In this document: piece by piece, positions 27,443-36,501 of the stretch
How the letters are laid out: every line of letters begins with the position of its first letter
Numbering within the stretch: the first letter of the stretch is position 1
Source: Candidatus Methanorbis basalitermitum
GTDB lineage: Archaea; Halobacteriota; Methanomicrobia; Methanomicrobiales; Methanocorpusculaceae
DNA length: 36,501 nt
Reading direction: 5' to 3'
NCBI GenBank assembly: GCA_031287415.1
Contig: JAITSY010000010.1
Span: 1-36,501, forward strand
Notes under the pieces: generated by a model
Told to the model about the DNA's origin: nothing
The model's input: only the letters and a program-made list of their open reading frames with translations
Database searches by the model: none
Translations under genes and position numbers: made by a program

Positions 27443-28462
27443 TTAAACAAGCTTGTACAGCGGGCCCTCGTGATCCTGTGGCTCACCGCCAAGTTCTTTT
27501 AAGGCCTCAGACAGAACGACGTCGGAGAAGGCTGCTGCGGTTGCGATACCTTCCATGTTCTCAATCGGACCGAACATGATAAGATCAGCACCAAGTGTCA
27601 TTGCCATGATGTTACAGCCGATATCCGGCGAGGACCAGGCAATCTGGCGAATGCCCTCAATACCACCATAATGATGGTGGAACATCTGCTCTGCAAGCAG
27701 GTCCTTGCCTTTGTACTGTTCGTGAATGTTCTTTCTCCAGCGCTTGAGCCAGGTCCAGGACACCGTCATGTTGTGGTATGCACCACCAGTCGGCAGTCCA
27801 TGGATTGCTTTGCATGCAAGAATCTCACGGAAAGAACCGGAGGAACCAAGGCCGAGCGGAGTTGCTGCAGTGTCGAGAATAGGGCGTTTGATACCGCACT
27901 CTTCTGCGATCTGCACCATACCCTTTGATTGACCTGCAACACCACCCTCGGAAAGTACCTTCTCACGGCCGGCAACAGAACCGTCTCCCGGGTTGAATGC
28001 AAGAACAATTGCGGAGTCCACATCGGACTCTGAAAGTGCCTGAATATTCTCCGGTGCAATGGACCCATTGATGGAGTTGTAGATTGCACGGTCTGCAAGA
28101 CCAACTTCCGTGACGTACTTCGTTGCATGGGCAAGTGCTGTCGGCGCGGAAGAATCCATCAGGAATGCAGTCTTGTTGTCGATACTGTCGAACCACTGGA
28201 AGTATGACTCGAAGGCCTCGCCGTACTCGGCGATGATCTGGATGAAGAAGTGGTTTCCGGTCGCATCAGTCAATTCCTGACAGCGGTTCCAGAGTGCTTC
28301 TGCTTTCGCTTTGTCGATCTTACCAGTGTGGTCATCAAGAACAACCTCATGTTTGTTGTAGAAGATGGATGCGCCGAGAACACGCGGGTATTCTCCTGGC
28401 TGTCCACCTATCTTTGTTCCGTTAAAGTCAAAGACCTGCTGCTCCTTTTCGAACTTGAACAT
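27443..28462 (-). CDS. mtrH: Methyl-H4MPT:CoM methyltransferase subunit H
   Basis: 339 aa. MtrH is the soluble subunit that moves the methyl group from methyl-tetrahydromethanopterin to the corrinoid on MtrA. It has the TIM-barrel-like methyltransferase sequence seen in the family: FNGTKIGGQPGEYPRVLGAS, FLMDSSAPTALAHATKY, YNSINGSIAPENIQAL and GADLIMFGPIENME. It is last in the operon, as in all mtrEDCBAFGH clusters, and follows the mtrA::mtrG fusion by 14 nt. GAGGTG upstream of the ATG is the ribosome binding site. Since two MtrA corrinoid domains are encoded upstream, this MtrH may have to serve both. Confidence 0.96.
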   Translation of the reverse strand: MFKFEKEQQVFDFNGTKIGGQPGEYPRVLGASIFYNKHEVVLDDHTGKIDKAKAEALWNRCQELTDATGNHFFIQIIAEYGEAFESYFQWFDSIDNKTAFLMDSSAPTALAHATKYVTEVGLADRAIYNSINGSIAPENIQALSESDVDSAIVLAFNPGDGSVAGREKVLSEGGVAGQSKGMVQIAEECGIKRPILDTAATPLGLGSSGSFREILACKAIHGLPTGGAYHNMTVSWTWLKRWRKNIHEQYKGKDLLAEQMFHHHYGGIEGIRQIAWSSPDIGCNIMAMTLGADLIMFGPIENMEGIATAAAFSDVVLSEALKELGGEPQDHEGPLYKLV

Positions 28463-28476
28463 ATTGGCACCTCAAT

Positions 28477-29220
28477 TTATATCATCAATATCAGTTTAGT
28501 CCATATCATCAGAATTACCAAAAAGGCAATACATCCTGCTACAAGACCGTAGAGGATACCGATGTCACGACCAATTTTTCTTCCGACACGCATCGCGATT
28601 TCCGCGTCCGTGAATTCTATCTTCTTCTCGATAGCATCGAGACGCTTCTCGATTTCGAGGAACTGCGGGTTCGCACTCGCAACCATTGCACCGCTGGCAC
28701 TTCCGCCATCGTCATCAGAGAGATGAACAACGATCGGATCAGCACCGAATGCTCCGGGGTCTTTTGCCTTAATCTCGCTGATCTTTGCAGAAATCTGACC
28801 AAGGTCTTCAGTTTCCATGATGTTGACGAGCTCAACCTGCTCCTGGAACCGCTTGATATCTGAGTCGCTCAAGTTCTCAAGGAACGGAATTGCCCCGATG
28901 GAACCGACGATCTTACCACCGTCAATACCATTTTTGTGCACCGCCTCGATGGACTGACCGGAAAGATGACCTTTCACTTCAGTACCACAGAGAAGGACAA
29001 AACGAATGTTTGGGTTTGAGATGACGTTGGCAACGATCTTTTCGATGCCGAGGTTTTCTGTCTTACAAGATCCTGCGAGGGCAGCTCCTGCCGCACAAAT
29101 TGCTGTTTCGTCAAGGTGAGAACCCATGGTGATAACAGCAACTGGGCTGTTTGCATCGCCGGTATGGTAGTCACCCTGGACAATCGGCCATCCATTTGCT
29201 GGTGATTTTTTATCTGCCAT
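28477..29220 (-). CDS. MtrA-MtrG fusion protein of the methyltransferase complex
   Basis: 247 aa. Residues 1 to about 180 are a full MtrA corrinoid-binding domain ([18 protein letters not shown]), with H85 in [15 protein letters not shown] at the place of the corrinoid-ligating histidine. Residues about 184-247 are Mtr[21 protein letters not shown], then [16 protein letters not shown] and one transmembrane helix. The gene sits exactly where mtrG is expected, between mtrF and mtrH, and the window has no other mtrG. The usual MtrA membrane anchor is missing, replaced by MtrG. The ribosome binding site GAGGTGA lies at the end of mtrF. The linker is a short Gly/Ser/Ala-rich stretch. The frame is open and the codons look normal, so a functional protein is likely. 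Confidence 0.92.
28808..28989 (-). repeat. Near-identical tract shared by mtrA and mtrA::mtrG, first copy
   Basis: This 182-bp stretch matches 29746-29927 with only two mismatches (28918 and 28926), including all other synonymous sites, whereas the sequence on both sides is clearly more divergent. It covers codons of about residues 78-138, including the corrinoid-ligand H85. Confidence 0.9.
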
Positions 29221-29226
29221 TCTTCT

Positions 29227-29421
29227 TCACCTCATGACAAGTACCAACACAGGAACAAAGATCGTAACGAGGGCGATGATGAGGCCTGCACCAAATCCAA
29301 CAAGTCCAGAGTCCATAACTGCAGACTCAATCTTGTAGGTACGAGCAAGAATTTGCCCCTTGTATCTGATGGCATCTACCATCTTATCGATGGCAGCCAT
29401 TCTGATAGTTGAACCTGCCAT
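29227..29421 (-). CDS. mtrF: Methyl-H4MPT:CoM methyltransferase subunit F
   Basis: 64 aa. An amphipathic N-terminal half (IDKMVDAIRYKGQILARTYK) is followed by one transmembrane helix (LVGFGAGLIIALVTIFVPVL). Size, sequence pattern and its place right after mtrA identify MtrF. This small subunit anchors and organises the membrane part of the complex. The start is 2 nt after the mtrA stop, and the stop is 6 nt before the fusion gene. Free-standing MtrF proteins are about this length. Confidence 0.88.
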   Translation of the reverse strand: MAGSTIRMAAIDKMVDAIRYKGQILARTYKIESAVMDSGLVGFGAGLIIALVTIFVPVLVLVMR

Positions 29422-29423
29422 TT

Positions 29424-30158
29424 TTAGATCACCCCAAAGAGGGTAACACCAAAGAGGGTAAGGGCAACGGTGAGACCGATCATCAGACCCTCAATCTTGC
29501 CCCCATAGAGGCCGGATGCGAATCTGGTACGGTAACCAATGTCGGTAACCATCATCTGGATGTATTTCATGCGGGCAGTGATGAGTGCCATCTCACCGGT
29601 TAAGGGTTCTTCCTCACCGGCTTCGGCCCCTGCACCGGATCCACTTTCATCACCGCTAATCTGAACGACAACCGGATCTGCACCGAAAGCTCCCGGGTCT
29701 CTTGCCTTGAGTTCACTGATCTTCGCGGCAATGACGTTCAAATCCTCAGTTTCCATGATGTTGACGAGCTCAACCTGCTCCTGGAACCGCTTGATATCTG
29801 AGTCGCTCAAGTTCTCAAGGAACGGAATTGCCCCGATGGAACCGACGATCTTACCGCCGTCAACACCATTTTTGTGCACCGCCTCGATGGACTGACCGGA
29901 AAGATGACCTTTCACTTCAGTACCACAAAGGAGGACAAAGCGAATGTTCGGGTTAGATATAATGTTGGCAACGATCTTTTCAATACCGAGATTTTCGGTT
30001 TTACAGGATCCTGCAAGAGCAGCCCCTGAAACGCAGATTGCCGTCTCATCGAGGTGAGATCCCATAGTGATTACAGCGACCGGGCTGTTTGCGTCACCGG
30101 TGTGGTAGTCACCCTGGACAATTGGCCATCCGCTTGCTGGTGATTTTTTATCTGCCAT
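29424..30158 (-). CDS. mtrA: Methyl-H4MPT:CoM methyltransferase corrinoid subunit A
   Basis: 244 aa from ATG 30158, preceded by GAGTGTGAG; an upstream TTG at 30173 is less likely. MtrA carries the corrinoid cofactor that accepts the methyl group from methyl-H4MPT and hands it to coenzyme M in the Na+-pumping step. H85 ([11 protein letters not shown]) matches the cobalt ligand. After the corrinoid domain come an acidic linker and a C-terminal membrane helix ([20 protein letters not shown]), the normal MtrA layout. The MtrA::MtrG gene two positions downstream shares most of residues 1-170; see the near-identical tract there. Confidence 0.96.
29746..29927 (-). repeat. Near-identical tract shared by mtrA and mtrA::mtrG, second copy
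   Basis: Partner of 28808-28989, at a constant offset of 938 bp. The pair is a direct repeat inside the mtr operon. Confidence 0.9.
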
Positions 30159-30169
30159 GTAACTCACAC

Positions 30170-30454
30170 TCAAAATAACGCCAATGCGATCAAACCAGCG
30201 ATGACCAGTCCTGGAACAAGACCATACCAGAACGAAGTGACGAATCCTGCGTACAGGAGAGTTTTTTCGCGTCCTGGATAGCTGTTGAGGAAGTTCCCTT
30301 CTCCAGAGAGCATTCCGACGAGATCGTCTGCAATTTTTTCAAGTTCAGCAACCTGGTCAGTAACTGGCTGGTAGGATACACCGGCAGTCGTGACAATGCC
30401 TGCGATAGGGTCAGCTACGAGGCCAAATTCCGGTAATACTAAGATATATCCCAT
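30170..30454 (-). CDS. mtrB: Methyl-H4MPT:CoM methyltransferase subunit B
   Basis: 94 aa. A soluble N-terminal part ([20 protein letters not shown], then a helical [20 protein letters not shown]) is followed by one C-terminal transmembrane helix ([18 protein letters not shown]), as in known MtrB. It lies between mtrC and mtrA in the conserved order, 18 nt after mtrC and 11 nt before the chosen mtrA start. It is a small structural subunit of the membrane complex. Confidence 0.92.
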
Positions 30455-30472: not shown

Positions 30473-31318
30473 TTATTCCTCCGCATCGCTGAACGGCTTT
30501 GCGTCGAGCCATGCTGCTGCATCGCGTTTTGATAGGGCAAAGAACTGTCTGTAGGTCACAAACCATCCAATGAGTGCAATGACGAAGGATATCCAAGCTG
30601 CAATCTGAGAAACGAATGCAAAGGAAATAACCGCCATAACAATCATGGAAAGGAAGCCGCACTCAATCGCGAGCAGGTCAGTTCTGTCCTGCTTCTCTCC
30701 TGGGCCAAGACAGGCGTTGAACGGGTGCTGCAGGGCAATTGCACCGAGTATAAACGCAACCGCGATGATCCCGGCACTGATATAGGAGGCGTAGGGATCC
30801 GTGAGGCCTGTTGTGATCTGATCATATCCAATATCTCCAGTTGCAACAGCGGTCAGACCCATAAGGGTGAGACAGCCGACAGCTGCAAGCTCGGCAATGC
30901 TGCGAGTCATGACCGGGATCTTCATGTTCAGGACGGAGTTAGAGATCCATCCAAGGATGAGACCGACAATCAGCGCAACGAGTAATCCTGCAATCGGAAC
31001 AAGGAACGGATTGACCTTGGTTGCGAACAGCATGGCAATAACCCCAGAACCAAACGCAAGCATACCTGCGGACGGAACGCCGGTACCAATACCGTAGCTG
31101 CAGAGTTTTTTGATTGTGCTGTTGCCCCAACGAAGGGTGAAAACAGCTGCGATTCCACCGCTGACGCAGGCGATCGCGGGATAGCTCCAGCTGCCGTCTC
31201 CAGCAACTGATGCGGCAGCAATTGCAATGTAGAGAAAAAACAGTGCAAGAATGCCATTTTTCATCATGACTGTATTATGGGGAACACCGTCATGTGATAC
31301 TTCAACTTTTACTGACAT
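30473..31318 (-). CDS. mtrC: Methyl-H4MPT:CoM methyltransferase subunit C
   Basis: 281 aa, polytopic membrane protein with about seven or eight hydrophobic segments, for example MKNGILALFFLYIAIAAASV and MIVMAVISFAFVSQIAAWIS. The characteristic inner stretch GNSTIKKLCSYGIGTGVPSA and ALQHPFNACLGPGEKQDRT identify MtrC. Together with MtrD and MtrE it makes up the large membrane part thought to conduct Na+. It is followed by mtrB in the same operon and starts 12 nt after the mtrD stop. Confidence 0.95.
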   Translation of the reverse strand: MSVKVEVSHDGVPHNTVMMKNGILALFFLYIAIAAASVAGDGSWSYPAIACVSGGIAAVFTLRWGNSTIKKLCSYGIGTGVPSAGMLAFGSGVIAMLFATKVNPFLVPIAGLLVALIVGLILGWISNSVLNMKIPVMTRSIAELAAVGCLTLMGLTAVATGDIGYDQITTGLTDPYASYISAGIIAVAFILGAIALQHPFNACLGPGEKQDRTDLLAIECGFLSMIVMAVISFAFVSQIAAWISFVIALIGWFVTYRQFFALSKRDAAAWLDAKPFSDAEE

Positions 31319-31330
31319 TTTTTACACACC

Positions 31331-32167
31331 TCAAAAAATTGCCACCACTAGAAGTGCAACGAGACCGCAGATGCCGCTTGCACAAATTGCGGCGACGATT
31401 GCACGGGGAAAACGCTTGAACTTCGGGTCATGCGGGCCCTCGATGGTTCCGGTAATGTTGTACGCAGAGAGTACTGCAATAACAAGGAACATACCAATTG
31501 CAAAGATACCTGCAAGGCCAACTGCCAAAGCATTTGTACCTTCACTGGTGGGAAGGAGGATCACGTTGTAGAAGTTGAGAAGTTCAATGTAGATGAGTGT
31601 TCCGCCAAGGCCGCCAAGCAGACCTCCGAAAACACCGCCAACATAGGAGATGAACGGAAGTCCGTGACCTTCGGTTCCCTGGGATTTGTACTCAGGCTGA
31701 GAGTCGCCGGTAATCGGGTCTTTCTCGACCTTGCCAGATGCTGCGGGGATACCCATGCCGTAGACATAGGAGATGTTCACCATCAGACAGGTGATTGCCA
31801 TCATTAAACCGCCGCCAATTGCACCACCAGCGAGAGCGACCCAAAGGCCGATGTGCGCTGCCCACGCTCCTCCAAATAGTCCTGCAAGACCTGCACCGGT
31901 CGCAAGCATTGCGACACCGGTTGCGATGCCTGGCGACTGTCCCATTGCTGCCGGCGCACCGCCGACCGGAACGAAATGGACACCAAATGCAATCAGGGCT
32001 GCACCGATGATGATACCAATCAGAGCTTCGACGGCAAGGCAGCCGAAGCTGCCAAGAAGCCAGTAAGCAGTACCGATAAAGATGATTGCAAAGAAGATTG
32101 CGATAAGGGAAGCAACAGGCTGGAAAGCTCCGGCGGCTGCTCCTGGTTTTGCTGCAATTGCGCTCAT
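31331..32167 (-). CDS. mtrD: Methyl-H4MPT:CoM methyltransferase subunit D
   Basis: 278 aa, membrane protein with several Gly/Ala-rich helices (LIGIIIGAALIAFGVHFVPV, GGAIGGGLMMAITCLMVNIS). The conserved loop GMGIPAASGKVEKDPITGDS is an MtrD hallmark. It begins 2 nt after the mtrE stop, so the two are translationally coupled. It is part of the Na+-translocating membrane module. Confidence 0.95.
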   Translation of the reverse strand: MSAIAAKPGAAAGAFQPVASLIAIFFAIIFIGTAYWLLGSFGCLAVEALIGIIIGAALIAFGVHFVPVGGAPAAMGQSPGIATGVAMLATGAGLAGLFGGAWAAHIGLWVALAGGAIGGGLMMAITCLMVNISYVYGMGIPAASGKVEKDPITGDSQPEYKSQGTEGHGLPFISYVGGVFGGLLGGLGGTLIYIELLNFYNVILLPTSEGTNALAVGLAGIFAIGMFLVIAVLSAYNITGTIEGPHDPKFKRFPRAIVAAICASGICGLVALLVVAIF

Positions 32168-32169
32168 GT

Positions 32170-33072
32170 TCAGGCCTCCGCAGTGTAGGGTCCGTAGTTC
32201 GTACGTGCCCAGATCTCAACATAGCGATCGATGATCATGAAGAGAACAATGATGAGGGCACCAACGATTACTGCTCCCCACCCAACTGCACCCCAGTTAT
32301 CAAGGGAATGCTCAAAGAGAACGGTACGCCACAGTTCAAGGAACACGATTAACCCAAAACAAAGACCAGAAGCCGGTCCACCGAATTTAGCGGTGAAAAA
32401 GCCGTTGTCAATAGAGCTTCTCTGACCTGCTTCTGCATACCGGACGATGTTACCGGATGCAGAGATGGGAACACCAGCACCGAACTTCTGATTTTGGTAC
32501 TGGCGTTCCTTTCCGTAGTACGGGTTTCCAGTTGCAGAACCTGCTGCACCAAGAGCAAGACCCCATACAATACCGAGAAGCGGAAGTGCGAATGGATGCT
32601 GGAGCATTGTTGACATGAGGTAACATGCGGCTACCGTGGTTAAAATTGCAACAAATGCGTGAGCCATGGTTACAGTCGTTACTGATTTCAAAACATCAAT
32701 AAAGACCGGCTGTCCGAACTTGGAAAGACTTGCCGTTCTTCCAAGGTATGCAGTGGTAGCATAGATACCCTGCACAAAGGTTGCGAGAACTGTACCGAAA
32801 ATGATTGCCAGCATTGCATTGACATGCAACATAGTGAATGCCCATGCAATACCGCAAGCAAGGGTTACCCACAGAGTGTAGGCGGGGGGTTCACCGGATA
32901 CTGCTTTGTTGTAGATACGGTGAGTGTACCCCATCTGCGGTGCGAGCTGGACCTGAGAGTTCGGGTCACCCTGTGATCCGATGTTGGACTCAGTATCCTC
33001 GGCTGCACCTGCCATCGCTGCGAGCGCTCCCGCAAAGGCAGTTACTCCAATGCCGATTATAATTTCTTGCAT
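32170..33072 (-). CDS. mtrE: Methyl-H4MPT:CoM methyltransferase subunit E
   Basis: 300 aa from ATG 33072 (MQEIIIGIGVTAFAGALAAM), preceded by GGGAGA; the frame runs on upstream into the leader. It is a polytopic membrane protein with a long conserved extramembrane loop (ESNIGSQGDPNSQVQLAPQM, GYTHRIYNKAVSGEPPAYTL). MtrE is first in the conserved mtrEDCBAFGH order and the largest of the three integral subunits that form the Na+ path. Transcription seems to start about 400 nt upstream. Confidence 0.95.
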   Translation of the reverse strand: MQEIIIGIGVTAFAGALAAMAGAAEDTESNIGSQGDPNSQVQLAPQMGYTHRIYNKAVSGEPPAYTLWVTLACGIAWAFTMLHVNAMLAIIFGTVLATFVQGIYATTAYLGRTASLSKFGQPVFIDVLKSVTTVTMAHAFVAILTTVAACYLMSTMLQHPFALPLLGIVWGLALGAAGSATGNPYYGKERQYQNQKFGAGVPISASGNIVRYAEAGQRSSIDNGFFTAKFGGPASGLCFGLIVFLELWRTVLFEHSLDNWGAVGWGAVIVGALIIVLFMIIDRYVEIWARTNYGPYTAEA

Positions 33073-33485
33073 GTAAGAATCTCCCTTGAGTTTGCGTAAC
33101 ATGAATTTCTCAACTCATGCATGCACCTGAACACCATGCAGGCGTCAGGGCCAACATTTCCATTGAGGAAACGAGAGTATTGTTCCAGTTCATAGCTGAA
33201 ACGAAGGATGCATCTCAAGTAACCACACGATAATCTATCGTGCAGACGTCTCAGGAGTCTAATGATAGACTCACGGACAAGTTGCAACACGGCCTGACGG
33301 CCGCCTGCCTGAGGCAGACGGGGCAGGCGGCAGGGCAGAGGGCGCAACGACCACATCTGCCTTGCTGCTTTCACAATTCGTTCATCTACGTGGAATGCCG
33401 TGAATGTTTGAACTAACGTTACCACTCTAAAGAATGGAGTACATAGTGTGGACAGTTACTTGTTTGCGGGGGAAGTATATTAATA
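33073..33485 (-). promoter_or_regulatory. Long structured leader of the mtr operon
   Basis: No good TATA box lies close to mtrE; the nearest strong A/T elements are at 33474-33527, so the leader may be about 400 nt. In it are two adjacent perfect hairpins, CACGATA-ATC-TATCGTG (33226-33242) and GAGTCTA-ATGA-TAGACTC (33255-33272). A GC-rich nested structure (GCCTGCC...GGCAGGC with CTGCC-TGA-GGCAG inside, about 33302-33328) follows. A piece near 33346-33366 resembles the right end of the palindromic element beside fae. An open frame crosses the leader in phase with mtrE but has no protein-like character. Confidence 0.5.
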
Positions 33486-33803: not shown

Positions 33804-34976
33804 ATGCAAATTGGATTCAACGACAGCTATGAAACATATATAAATCAGCTTAATCTCGCGTGGACTGAGTGTTTTCGTGTACTTCGCGATGGTTGCCGCA
33901 TGTGCGTGAATGTTGGAGACCAGTTTGCGCGTTCCAGTTATTATGGACGTTACAAGGTTATCCCGATTCACACCGAAATAATCCGTTTTTGTGAAAGTAT
34001 TGGGTTAGATTTTATGGGTCAGATTATCTGGCAAAAGACAACAACGATGAATACAACCGGAGGCGGAGCGGTTATGGGAAGTTTTCCGTATCCGAGAAAT
34101 GGAATAGTCAAGCTCGATTTTGAGTATATACTGCTTTTCAAAAAACCAGGCAACGCTCCGAAACCATCTTCGACTCGCAAGTTGGCTGCTAAAATGACGA
34201 ACGAGGAATGGAACACATATTTTGGGGGTCATTGGAATTTTTCAGGAGTTCGACAAGACAAACATCTTGCTATGTTTCCCGAGGAATTGCCGCGAAGATT
34301 GATAAAAATGTTCTCGTTTCCAGGAGAGAAAGTACTTGATCCATTTGCCGGTAGCGGAACAACGGCAAAGGTCGCAAGAGAGCTTGGGCGCAGTTCCATA
34401 AACTATGAAATCAACCGCGAGTTTATTTCGATCATACGCGAAAAACTTGGTGAATCCAATACATTTACCGAAGTCAAGACTGTTCGCGATGTTTGCCCTG
34501 AACTGGAAATTCTTGAGGCAAGAGTTCATAATCTGCCATATATCTTTGCCGATGTTCATAAATTTGATAAGAAATTTGATGTGAAACGGTTGCACAGCGG
34601 TTTAAAGATCGATATGGCAAGCTCCGATGAACGTATAGAACAATACAGGGTACGTTCAGTTATTGCACCTAATTTAATTAAGCTGTCAAACGATATGCTG
34701 ATACGTTTAATTGGGATAAAGCCTGACCCCCAAATGATAGAACCTGCAAAAAAATTCTTGTTGACAAAATTCAAGGGAAGACGCGTATTTATAAAACATG
34801 ATGATATAAAGTTCGATGATGAAAATCGACCCCTCGTTTATCTTTACCTCGATAACAAGACGTTTATTAACGCACACTTGCTTAAGAATAAATTTGCGCT
34901 TGTTGATGATTCAATTCCGTTTGGATTAGCAGATAAATTTACGAGTTTAAGATTTCCCGAGATGCAAAATGGCTAA
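33804..34976 (+). CDS. DNA methyltransferase (N4/N6 class) with SNase-like tail, N-terminally truncated
   Basis: 390 aa. The frame starts with sequence that normally follows motif IV of class-beta amino-methyltransferases (NDSYETYINQLNLAWTECFR, VLRDG). The AdoMet-binding motif I is DPFAGSGTT at residues 179-187. The catalytic motif IV (S/D-PP-Y) that should lie just before the present N-terminus is missing, so the enzyme is probably inactive. Residues about 280-375 resemble a staphylococcal-nuclease (SNase) fold (MLIRLIGIKPDP, GRRVFIKHDD, DENRPLVYLYLDNKTFINAH). The usual acidic residue after RLIGID-PE is not there, so it is probably a non-catalytic module. GGAGATGA precedes the ATG. The next gene is the partner endonuclease; AT-rich composition suggests transfer. 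Confidence 0.75.
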   Translation: MQIGFNDSYETYINQLNLAWTECFRVLRDGCRMCVNVGDQFARSSYYGRYKVIPIHTEIIRFCESIGLDFMGQIIWQKTTTMNTTGGGAVMGSFPYPRNGIVKLDFEYILLFKKPGNAPKPSSTRKLAAKMTNEEWNTYFGGHWNFSGVRQDKHLAMFPEELPRRLIKMFSFPGEKVLDPFAGSGTTAKVARELGRSSINYEINREFISIIREKLGESNTFTEVKTVRDVCPELEILEARVHNLPYIFADVHKFDKKFDVKRLHSGLKIDMASSDERIEQYRVRSVIAPNLIKLSNDMLIRLIGIKPDPQMIEPAKKFLLTKFKGRRVFIKHDDIKFDDENRPLVYLYLDNKTFINAHLLKNKFALVDDSIPFGLADKFTSLRFPEMQNG

Positions 34977-35703: not shown

Positions 35704-36501
35704 CTAAATTACACACTGTTTCAGCAGTGTATCAAACACCCCTTTGTTTTTCCGGTTATTGGGCCTGAAGCAAAATTCATCGATATACTTCTGCATGTAT
35801 TTTGCTGAAATATGGTGATACATCCCATAAATGCCTCTTTTTATCAGTGCCCATACGGATTCTATACCATTGGTGTGTGTTTTCTTGTGATCGCTGTGCT
35901 GCCCTAATGAGTGATTCACCTACAGATGGGCACACTCCTTATGGTTATCAAGAATTCTATATCCAGGGAACTCGTCAGAGATAACCGTAGTCTTTGCTTT
36001 GCACGCCTGCCGAATTATCCCGATCAGTTGTCGACCGGTCAACATTTTATTCTGACCGTCTTTCTTAGCTACCACGGCGCGCACATGCCCCGAAGAACGC
36101 TCCTTCACGCCGACAACTGGAGTCTTTGTTGTTCCCCTGCCACGCTTTCTTTTCTTATTTTTGTCTCTGGATGGTTTTCCACCCACATATGTTTCATCTA
36201 CCTCTACGATAGCCTCAAACATCTCTCTCTCTCTTGTTCATTCCCCATAGCCGTACGGATTCGGTTTAGCATTCTCCAAGCGCATTTATATGTAACGCCA
36301 ATCTCTCTTTGTAACTGCCTGCCGGAGATACCCTTCTTACCGTTGAGCATGGTGTTAATAGCGTAAAACCACATCTTCATGTCGGTTGATGATTTTTCGA
36401 AGATGGTATCCCGCATGATGGAGAAAGTATTGTCGCAGTGTTTGCAGTCAAACATTTTTGGTTCATCTTTTCTCCGGTAGATCAGTTGTCGGCCACCGCA
36501 A
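35704..36501 (-). mobile_element. IS1595-like transposase, inactivated and cut by the window edge
   Basis: Read leftward from the window edge, the N-terminal part has a zinc ribbon (CGGRQLIYRRKDEPKMFDCK, HCDNTF) and GKKGISGRQLQREIGVTYK. The core has VEVDETYVGGKPSR with the first catalytic aspartate and SDEFPGYRIL with the second. The C-terminal part has HTNGIESVWALIKRGIYGMY, the hallmark of IS1595/ISXO2 transposases with the final acidic residue. Two lesions are visible: a frameshift near 36205-36225, between RTAMGNEQERE and MFEAIVEVDE, and an in-frame TAG at 35920-35922. The beginning of the gene lies beyond 36501. Transposition by this copy is not expected. Confidence 0.85.

Follow-up and report, generated by a model that had tools for sequence, protein, structure and literature searches.

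The methyltransferase Mtr is the sodium-pumping step of methanogenesis. In the stretch of DNA analysed here, a window of 36,501 nucleotides from Candidatus Methanorbis basalitermitum (contig JAITSY010000010.1), the gene at the mtrG position of the mtr operon reads as a second MtrA joined to MtrG, which raises the question of whether such a fusion is genuine, whether it belongs to a known family, and whether it would give the Mtr complex a second corrinoid arm. The window holds a complete mtr operon on the minus strand, running from 33102 to 27443 in the order mtrE-D-C-B-A-F-[A–G]-H, and all genes of the operon score above their own Pfam cut-offs (Table 1). The true start of mtrE is probably a later ATG than the start of its open reading frame.

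The fusion is encoded by a single open reading frame without an internal stop. Its MtrA part matches the Pfam profile with 277 bits over residues 4 to 172 (cut-off, 25), its MtrG part with 78.5 bits over residues 184 to 238 (cut-off, 27), and the protein clears both NCBIfam equivalog cut-offs, mtrA and mtrG. The MtrG match spans positions 9 to 63 of the 64 in the PF04210 profile, with the linker occupying the place of the unmatched first 8, and by the same profile the MtrG membrane helix is present. The initial annotation had described a full MtrA corrinoid domain joined to MtrG with its helix and carrying the ligand histidine at residue 85, and these descriptions were confirmed; the KGHL histidine falls at residue 85 both in the fusion and in mtrA-1. 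A normal mtrA had likewise been reported, and mtrA-1 is indeed kept, with a PF04208 match covering residues 4 to 172 and a C-terminal membrane helix of its own. The fused arm hangs from a different membrane helix, that of MtrG, as had been proposed. In a profile search of the whole assembly (1.16 Mb in 33 contigs, 74% complete), we found two matches to MtrA and a single one to MtrG. All lie inside the mtr operon, that to MtrG in the fusion, in agreement with the earlier statement that no separate mtrG is seen. Because the genome is incomplete, a free mtrG elsewhere in the organism retains some probability; closed genomes of relatives have one MtrG match each.

Table 1. Positions of the mtr operon genes and of selected features within them, given as coordinates of the window.
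Feature	Position	Strand	Description
mtrH	27443..28462	-	PF02007, 319 bits
mtrA-2b	28477..29220	-	MtrA-MtrG fusion, 247 aa; PF04208 at residues 4-172, PF04210 at residues 184-238
mtrA-2b, parts		-	MtrA domain, residues 1 to about 170; then linker; then MtrG stalk/membrane helix, residues 184-247
Partner tract, fusion codons 78-137	28810..28989	-	Longest identical run, 36 codons
His85 codon of mtrA-2b	28966..28968	-	Expected cobalt ligand of the fused MtrA domain; KGHL motif, residues 83-86
mtrF	29227..29421	-	64 aa; PF09472, 68.8 bits
mtrA-1	29424..30158	-	244 aa, normal MtrA, own membrane helix at the C terminus; PF04208, 270.7 bits; NCBIfam mtrA equivalog
Near-identical tract, mtrA-1 codons 78-137	29748..29927	-	2 of 60 codons differ from the fusion
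mtrB	30170..30454	-	PF05440
mtrC	30473..31318	-	PF04211
mtrD	31331..32167	-	PF04207
mtrE ORF	32170..33102	-	PF04206 from residue 18

Two observations concern the surroundings of the operon. An open reading frame of 390 residues on the plus strand (33804-34976) adjoins it and resembles, by eye, a DNA methyltransferase with an additional domain at the C terminus. Farther along, three short minus-strand open reading frames in different frames (35704-36455) look like fragments of one broken IS transposase, IS1595-like, again as judged by eye. A scan for sigma-70 promoters gave 9 sites against 7.8 in shuffled sequence, which is no excess, and the sigma-70 model does not fit an archaeon.

The fusion arrangement, about whose prior description the initial annotation had been uncertain, has been described before. 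In 2015, Wang et al. (PMC4632066) gave the MtrA–MtrG fusion of Methanomicrobiales the name mtrA-2b and reported a long-lasting gene conversion that keeps its MtrA domain similar to mtrA-1, with Methanocorpusculum labreanum as the representative of its genus, and the arrangement was restated in later work (PMC6053082). The best named relatives are from Methanocorpusculum, with up to 89% identity, and assign the window to that genus. The window's gene shares with mtrA-2b the flanking mtrF and mtrH, a helix-less MtrA domain joined to MtrG, an upstream mtrA-1 that is kept, homogenised MtrA domains, and the order Methanomicrobiales itself. We are thus almost certain that it is mtrA-2b, the ancestral MtrA-MtrG fusion of Methanomicrobiales, in an otherwise normal mtr operon, and the window's gene adds a further member to a gene family already on record. 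For Methanococcales and Methanocella arvoryzae, Wang et al. also reported a parallel fusion of mtrA with mtrF, which they called mtrA-2a (PMC4632066). There too a second MtrA domain sits on a small stalk subunit and evolves in concert with mtrA-1, but the fusion partner is MtrF rather than MtrG, and the origin was independent according to that study.

The relationship between the two MtrA domains was followed in 59 genomes in which both copies are full-length. The mean DNA identity of the domains was 94.4% within a genome versus 74.5% between genomes. In the tree, 42 of the 59 within-genome pairs are sisters, that of the window among them. Where the window departs from mtrA-2b as described, with no substantial difference otherwise, is that homogenisation is only partial, with 87% DNA identity (87.3%, or 63 nucleotides differing in 495) and one recent-looking tract. 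The closest mtrA-2 of another genome shows 86.5% DNA identity to the window's fusion. Identity along the window pair is uneven: codons 78 to 137 contain 2 changed codons in 60, the flanking parts 50 in 105. Fisher's p for this contrast is about 2e-10, a value calculated once the tract had been noticed and so indicative only; a shuffle test on the longest identical run gave a p of 0.0005. This unevenness is a mark of gene conversion. The paralog comparison as a whole shows the imprint of recurrent gene conversion, which keeps both MtrA domains alike.

The architecture of the complex is known from cryo-EM of the Methanothermobacter Mtr (PMC10998594), a trimer of MtrABCDEFG protomers with an A:G ratio of 1:1, in which MtrA, MtrB, MtrF, and MtrG each contribute one helix to a central stalk, the N termini are cytoplasmic, and the soluble MtrA corrinoid domain is mobile on a glycine/glutamate-rich linker. 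Structures 8Q3V and 8Q54 (Methanothermobacter marburgensis) and 9QTQ, 9QTR, and 9QTS include chains that are sequence relatives of both fusion parts; unlike in the window, MtrA and MtrG are separate chains in them, with one MtrA per protomer. Because the N terminus of MtrG is cytoplasmic (PMC10998594), an N-terminal fusion brings the added domain to the correct side, next to the one of MtrA-1. We propose that, in the ancestor of Methanomicrobiales, mtrG acquired at its front a further mtrA domain lacking a membrane helix, and that the fusion product would replace MtrG in the central stalk of the complex. A flexible linker of about 20 residues would hold the second corrinoid domain on the cytoplasmic side; the linker between domain and stalk helix is 18 to 22 residues long in the 56 fusions in which it could be measured. 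With one copy each of A to G per protomer, the trimer would carry three MtrA-1 and three MtrA-2 arms, and six methyl carriers would shuttle between MtrH and the MtrCDE cavities. This doubling of the corrinoid arms, raised in the initial annotation, is plausible and would give six per complex, fitting the 1:1 ratio of A to G and the conserved ligand histidine.

The lower-ligand histidine, His84 in M. marburgensis, corresponds to His85 in both the window's fusion and mtrA-1, and the 59-genome alignment has it in 59 of 59 fusions and 59 of 59 mtrA-1 copies. We infer that the fused arm probably does bind a corrinoid and take part in turnover. At 17 positions, comprising the MtrCDE contacts modelled in the cryo-EM paper (PMC10998594) and the ligand region, only 1 of the 59 genomes shows a difference between its copies, at a single position; since the contacts are conserved across MtrA as a whole and hardly vary in any genome, this identity is weak and not independent evidence of function. 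The papers searched gave no measurement of protein, corrinoid, or stoichiometry for the Mtr complex of any Methanomicrobiales species. The fused domain could instead have a structural role or serve as a reserve template for gene conversion, and be no working methyl carrier, as the MtrG part alone would suffice for the stalk. We consider this unlikely, given that no fusion in the alignment has lost the ligand histidine and that conservation of the domain equals that of mtrA-1; moreover, both copies of mtrA were reported essential in Methanococcales, which have the analogous A-F fusion (Sarmiento et al. 2013, as cited in PMC4632066). Post-translational cleavage into a free soluble MtrA domain and a free MtrG would be compatible with the fusion linker, which is probably flexible, and soluble MtrA homologues are known from other methanogens (PMC4915002), but proteins of the MtrA-1 type with a similar flexible linker were reported to be uncleaved (PMC10998594), and we judge cleavage very improbable.

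The comparison of mtr operons across Methanomicrobiales that the initial annotation had suggested covered several dozen loci from many genera. Every intact locus examined in that order has the layout A, F, A–G, H, closed single-contig genomes included. An MtrG match was present in 179 of the 232 Methanomicrobiales genomes, one apiece in each genome among the matches listed, and the MtrG-bearing open frames are mostly about 244 to 320 amino acids long. The loci examined outside Methanomicrobiales have a stand-alone MtrG with an open frame of about 76 to 143 codons, and a Methanocella bin with an A–F fusion has a stand-alone MtrG as well. A repeat-driven misjoin that placed a second mtrA copy before mtrG has next to no probability and was rejected: the two MtrA domains are close repeats at which metagenome assemblies often break, but closed single-contig genomes, and genomes of many genera, carry the same gene order, and the 63 differences between the copies mean that neither is a collapsed or doubled version of the other.

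Short MtrG frames in some Methanomicrobiales were considered as free mtrG genes and rejected, the fetched cases being contig ends, N gaps (three cases), and, within the fused domain, a frameshift or an ambiguous base (two cases); other short frames were assigned to contig ends by coordinates alone, and the weakest matches lie outside those listed. Within the repeated MtrA domain, Methanomicrobiales assemblies frequently break off or acquire N gaps (five examples were noted); the fused gene is therefore easily taken for a fragment, and genomes that are good in other respects can lack mtrG. The repetition of the domain is a likely reason for the breaks.

Two further loci deserve mention in their own right. 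A Methanocorpusculum-like mtr operon with 84% identity to the window's fusion lies on contig JAQVAY010000069.1, whose bin is labelled 'Bacilli bacterium'; because of this operon the bin looks contaminated or mislabelled. In Methanocella sp. PtaU1.Bin125 (MVRA01000212.1, 3995-7069), mtrA is followed by a fusion of mtrA with mtrF, in which the MtrA domain reads the same as mtrA-1, then by two tandem mtrG frames of 67 and 106 residues, an unusual duplication, and then by mtrH.

A whole order of methanogens thus seems to have genes for double the normal number of corrinoid domains in each Mtr complex. Although another order evolved a parallel fusion, MtrA and MtrG are separate chains in the matching solved structures. 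There is a slim chance that the two arms of a six-arm Mtr are not equivalent, with MtrA-2 on the MtrG helix serving a different step or neighbour from MtrA-1. If that were so, MtrA-2 might, for example, be loading at MtrH while MtrA-1 is at MtrCDE, and methyl loading and Na+ pumping would overlap in time.
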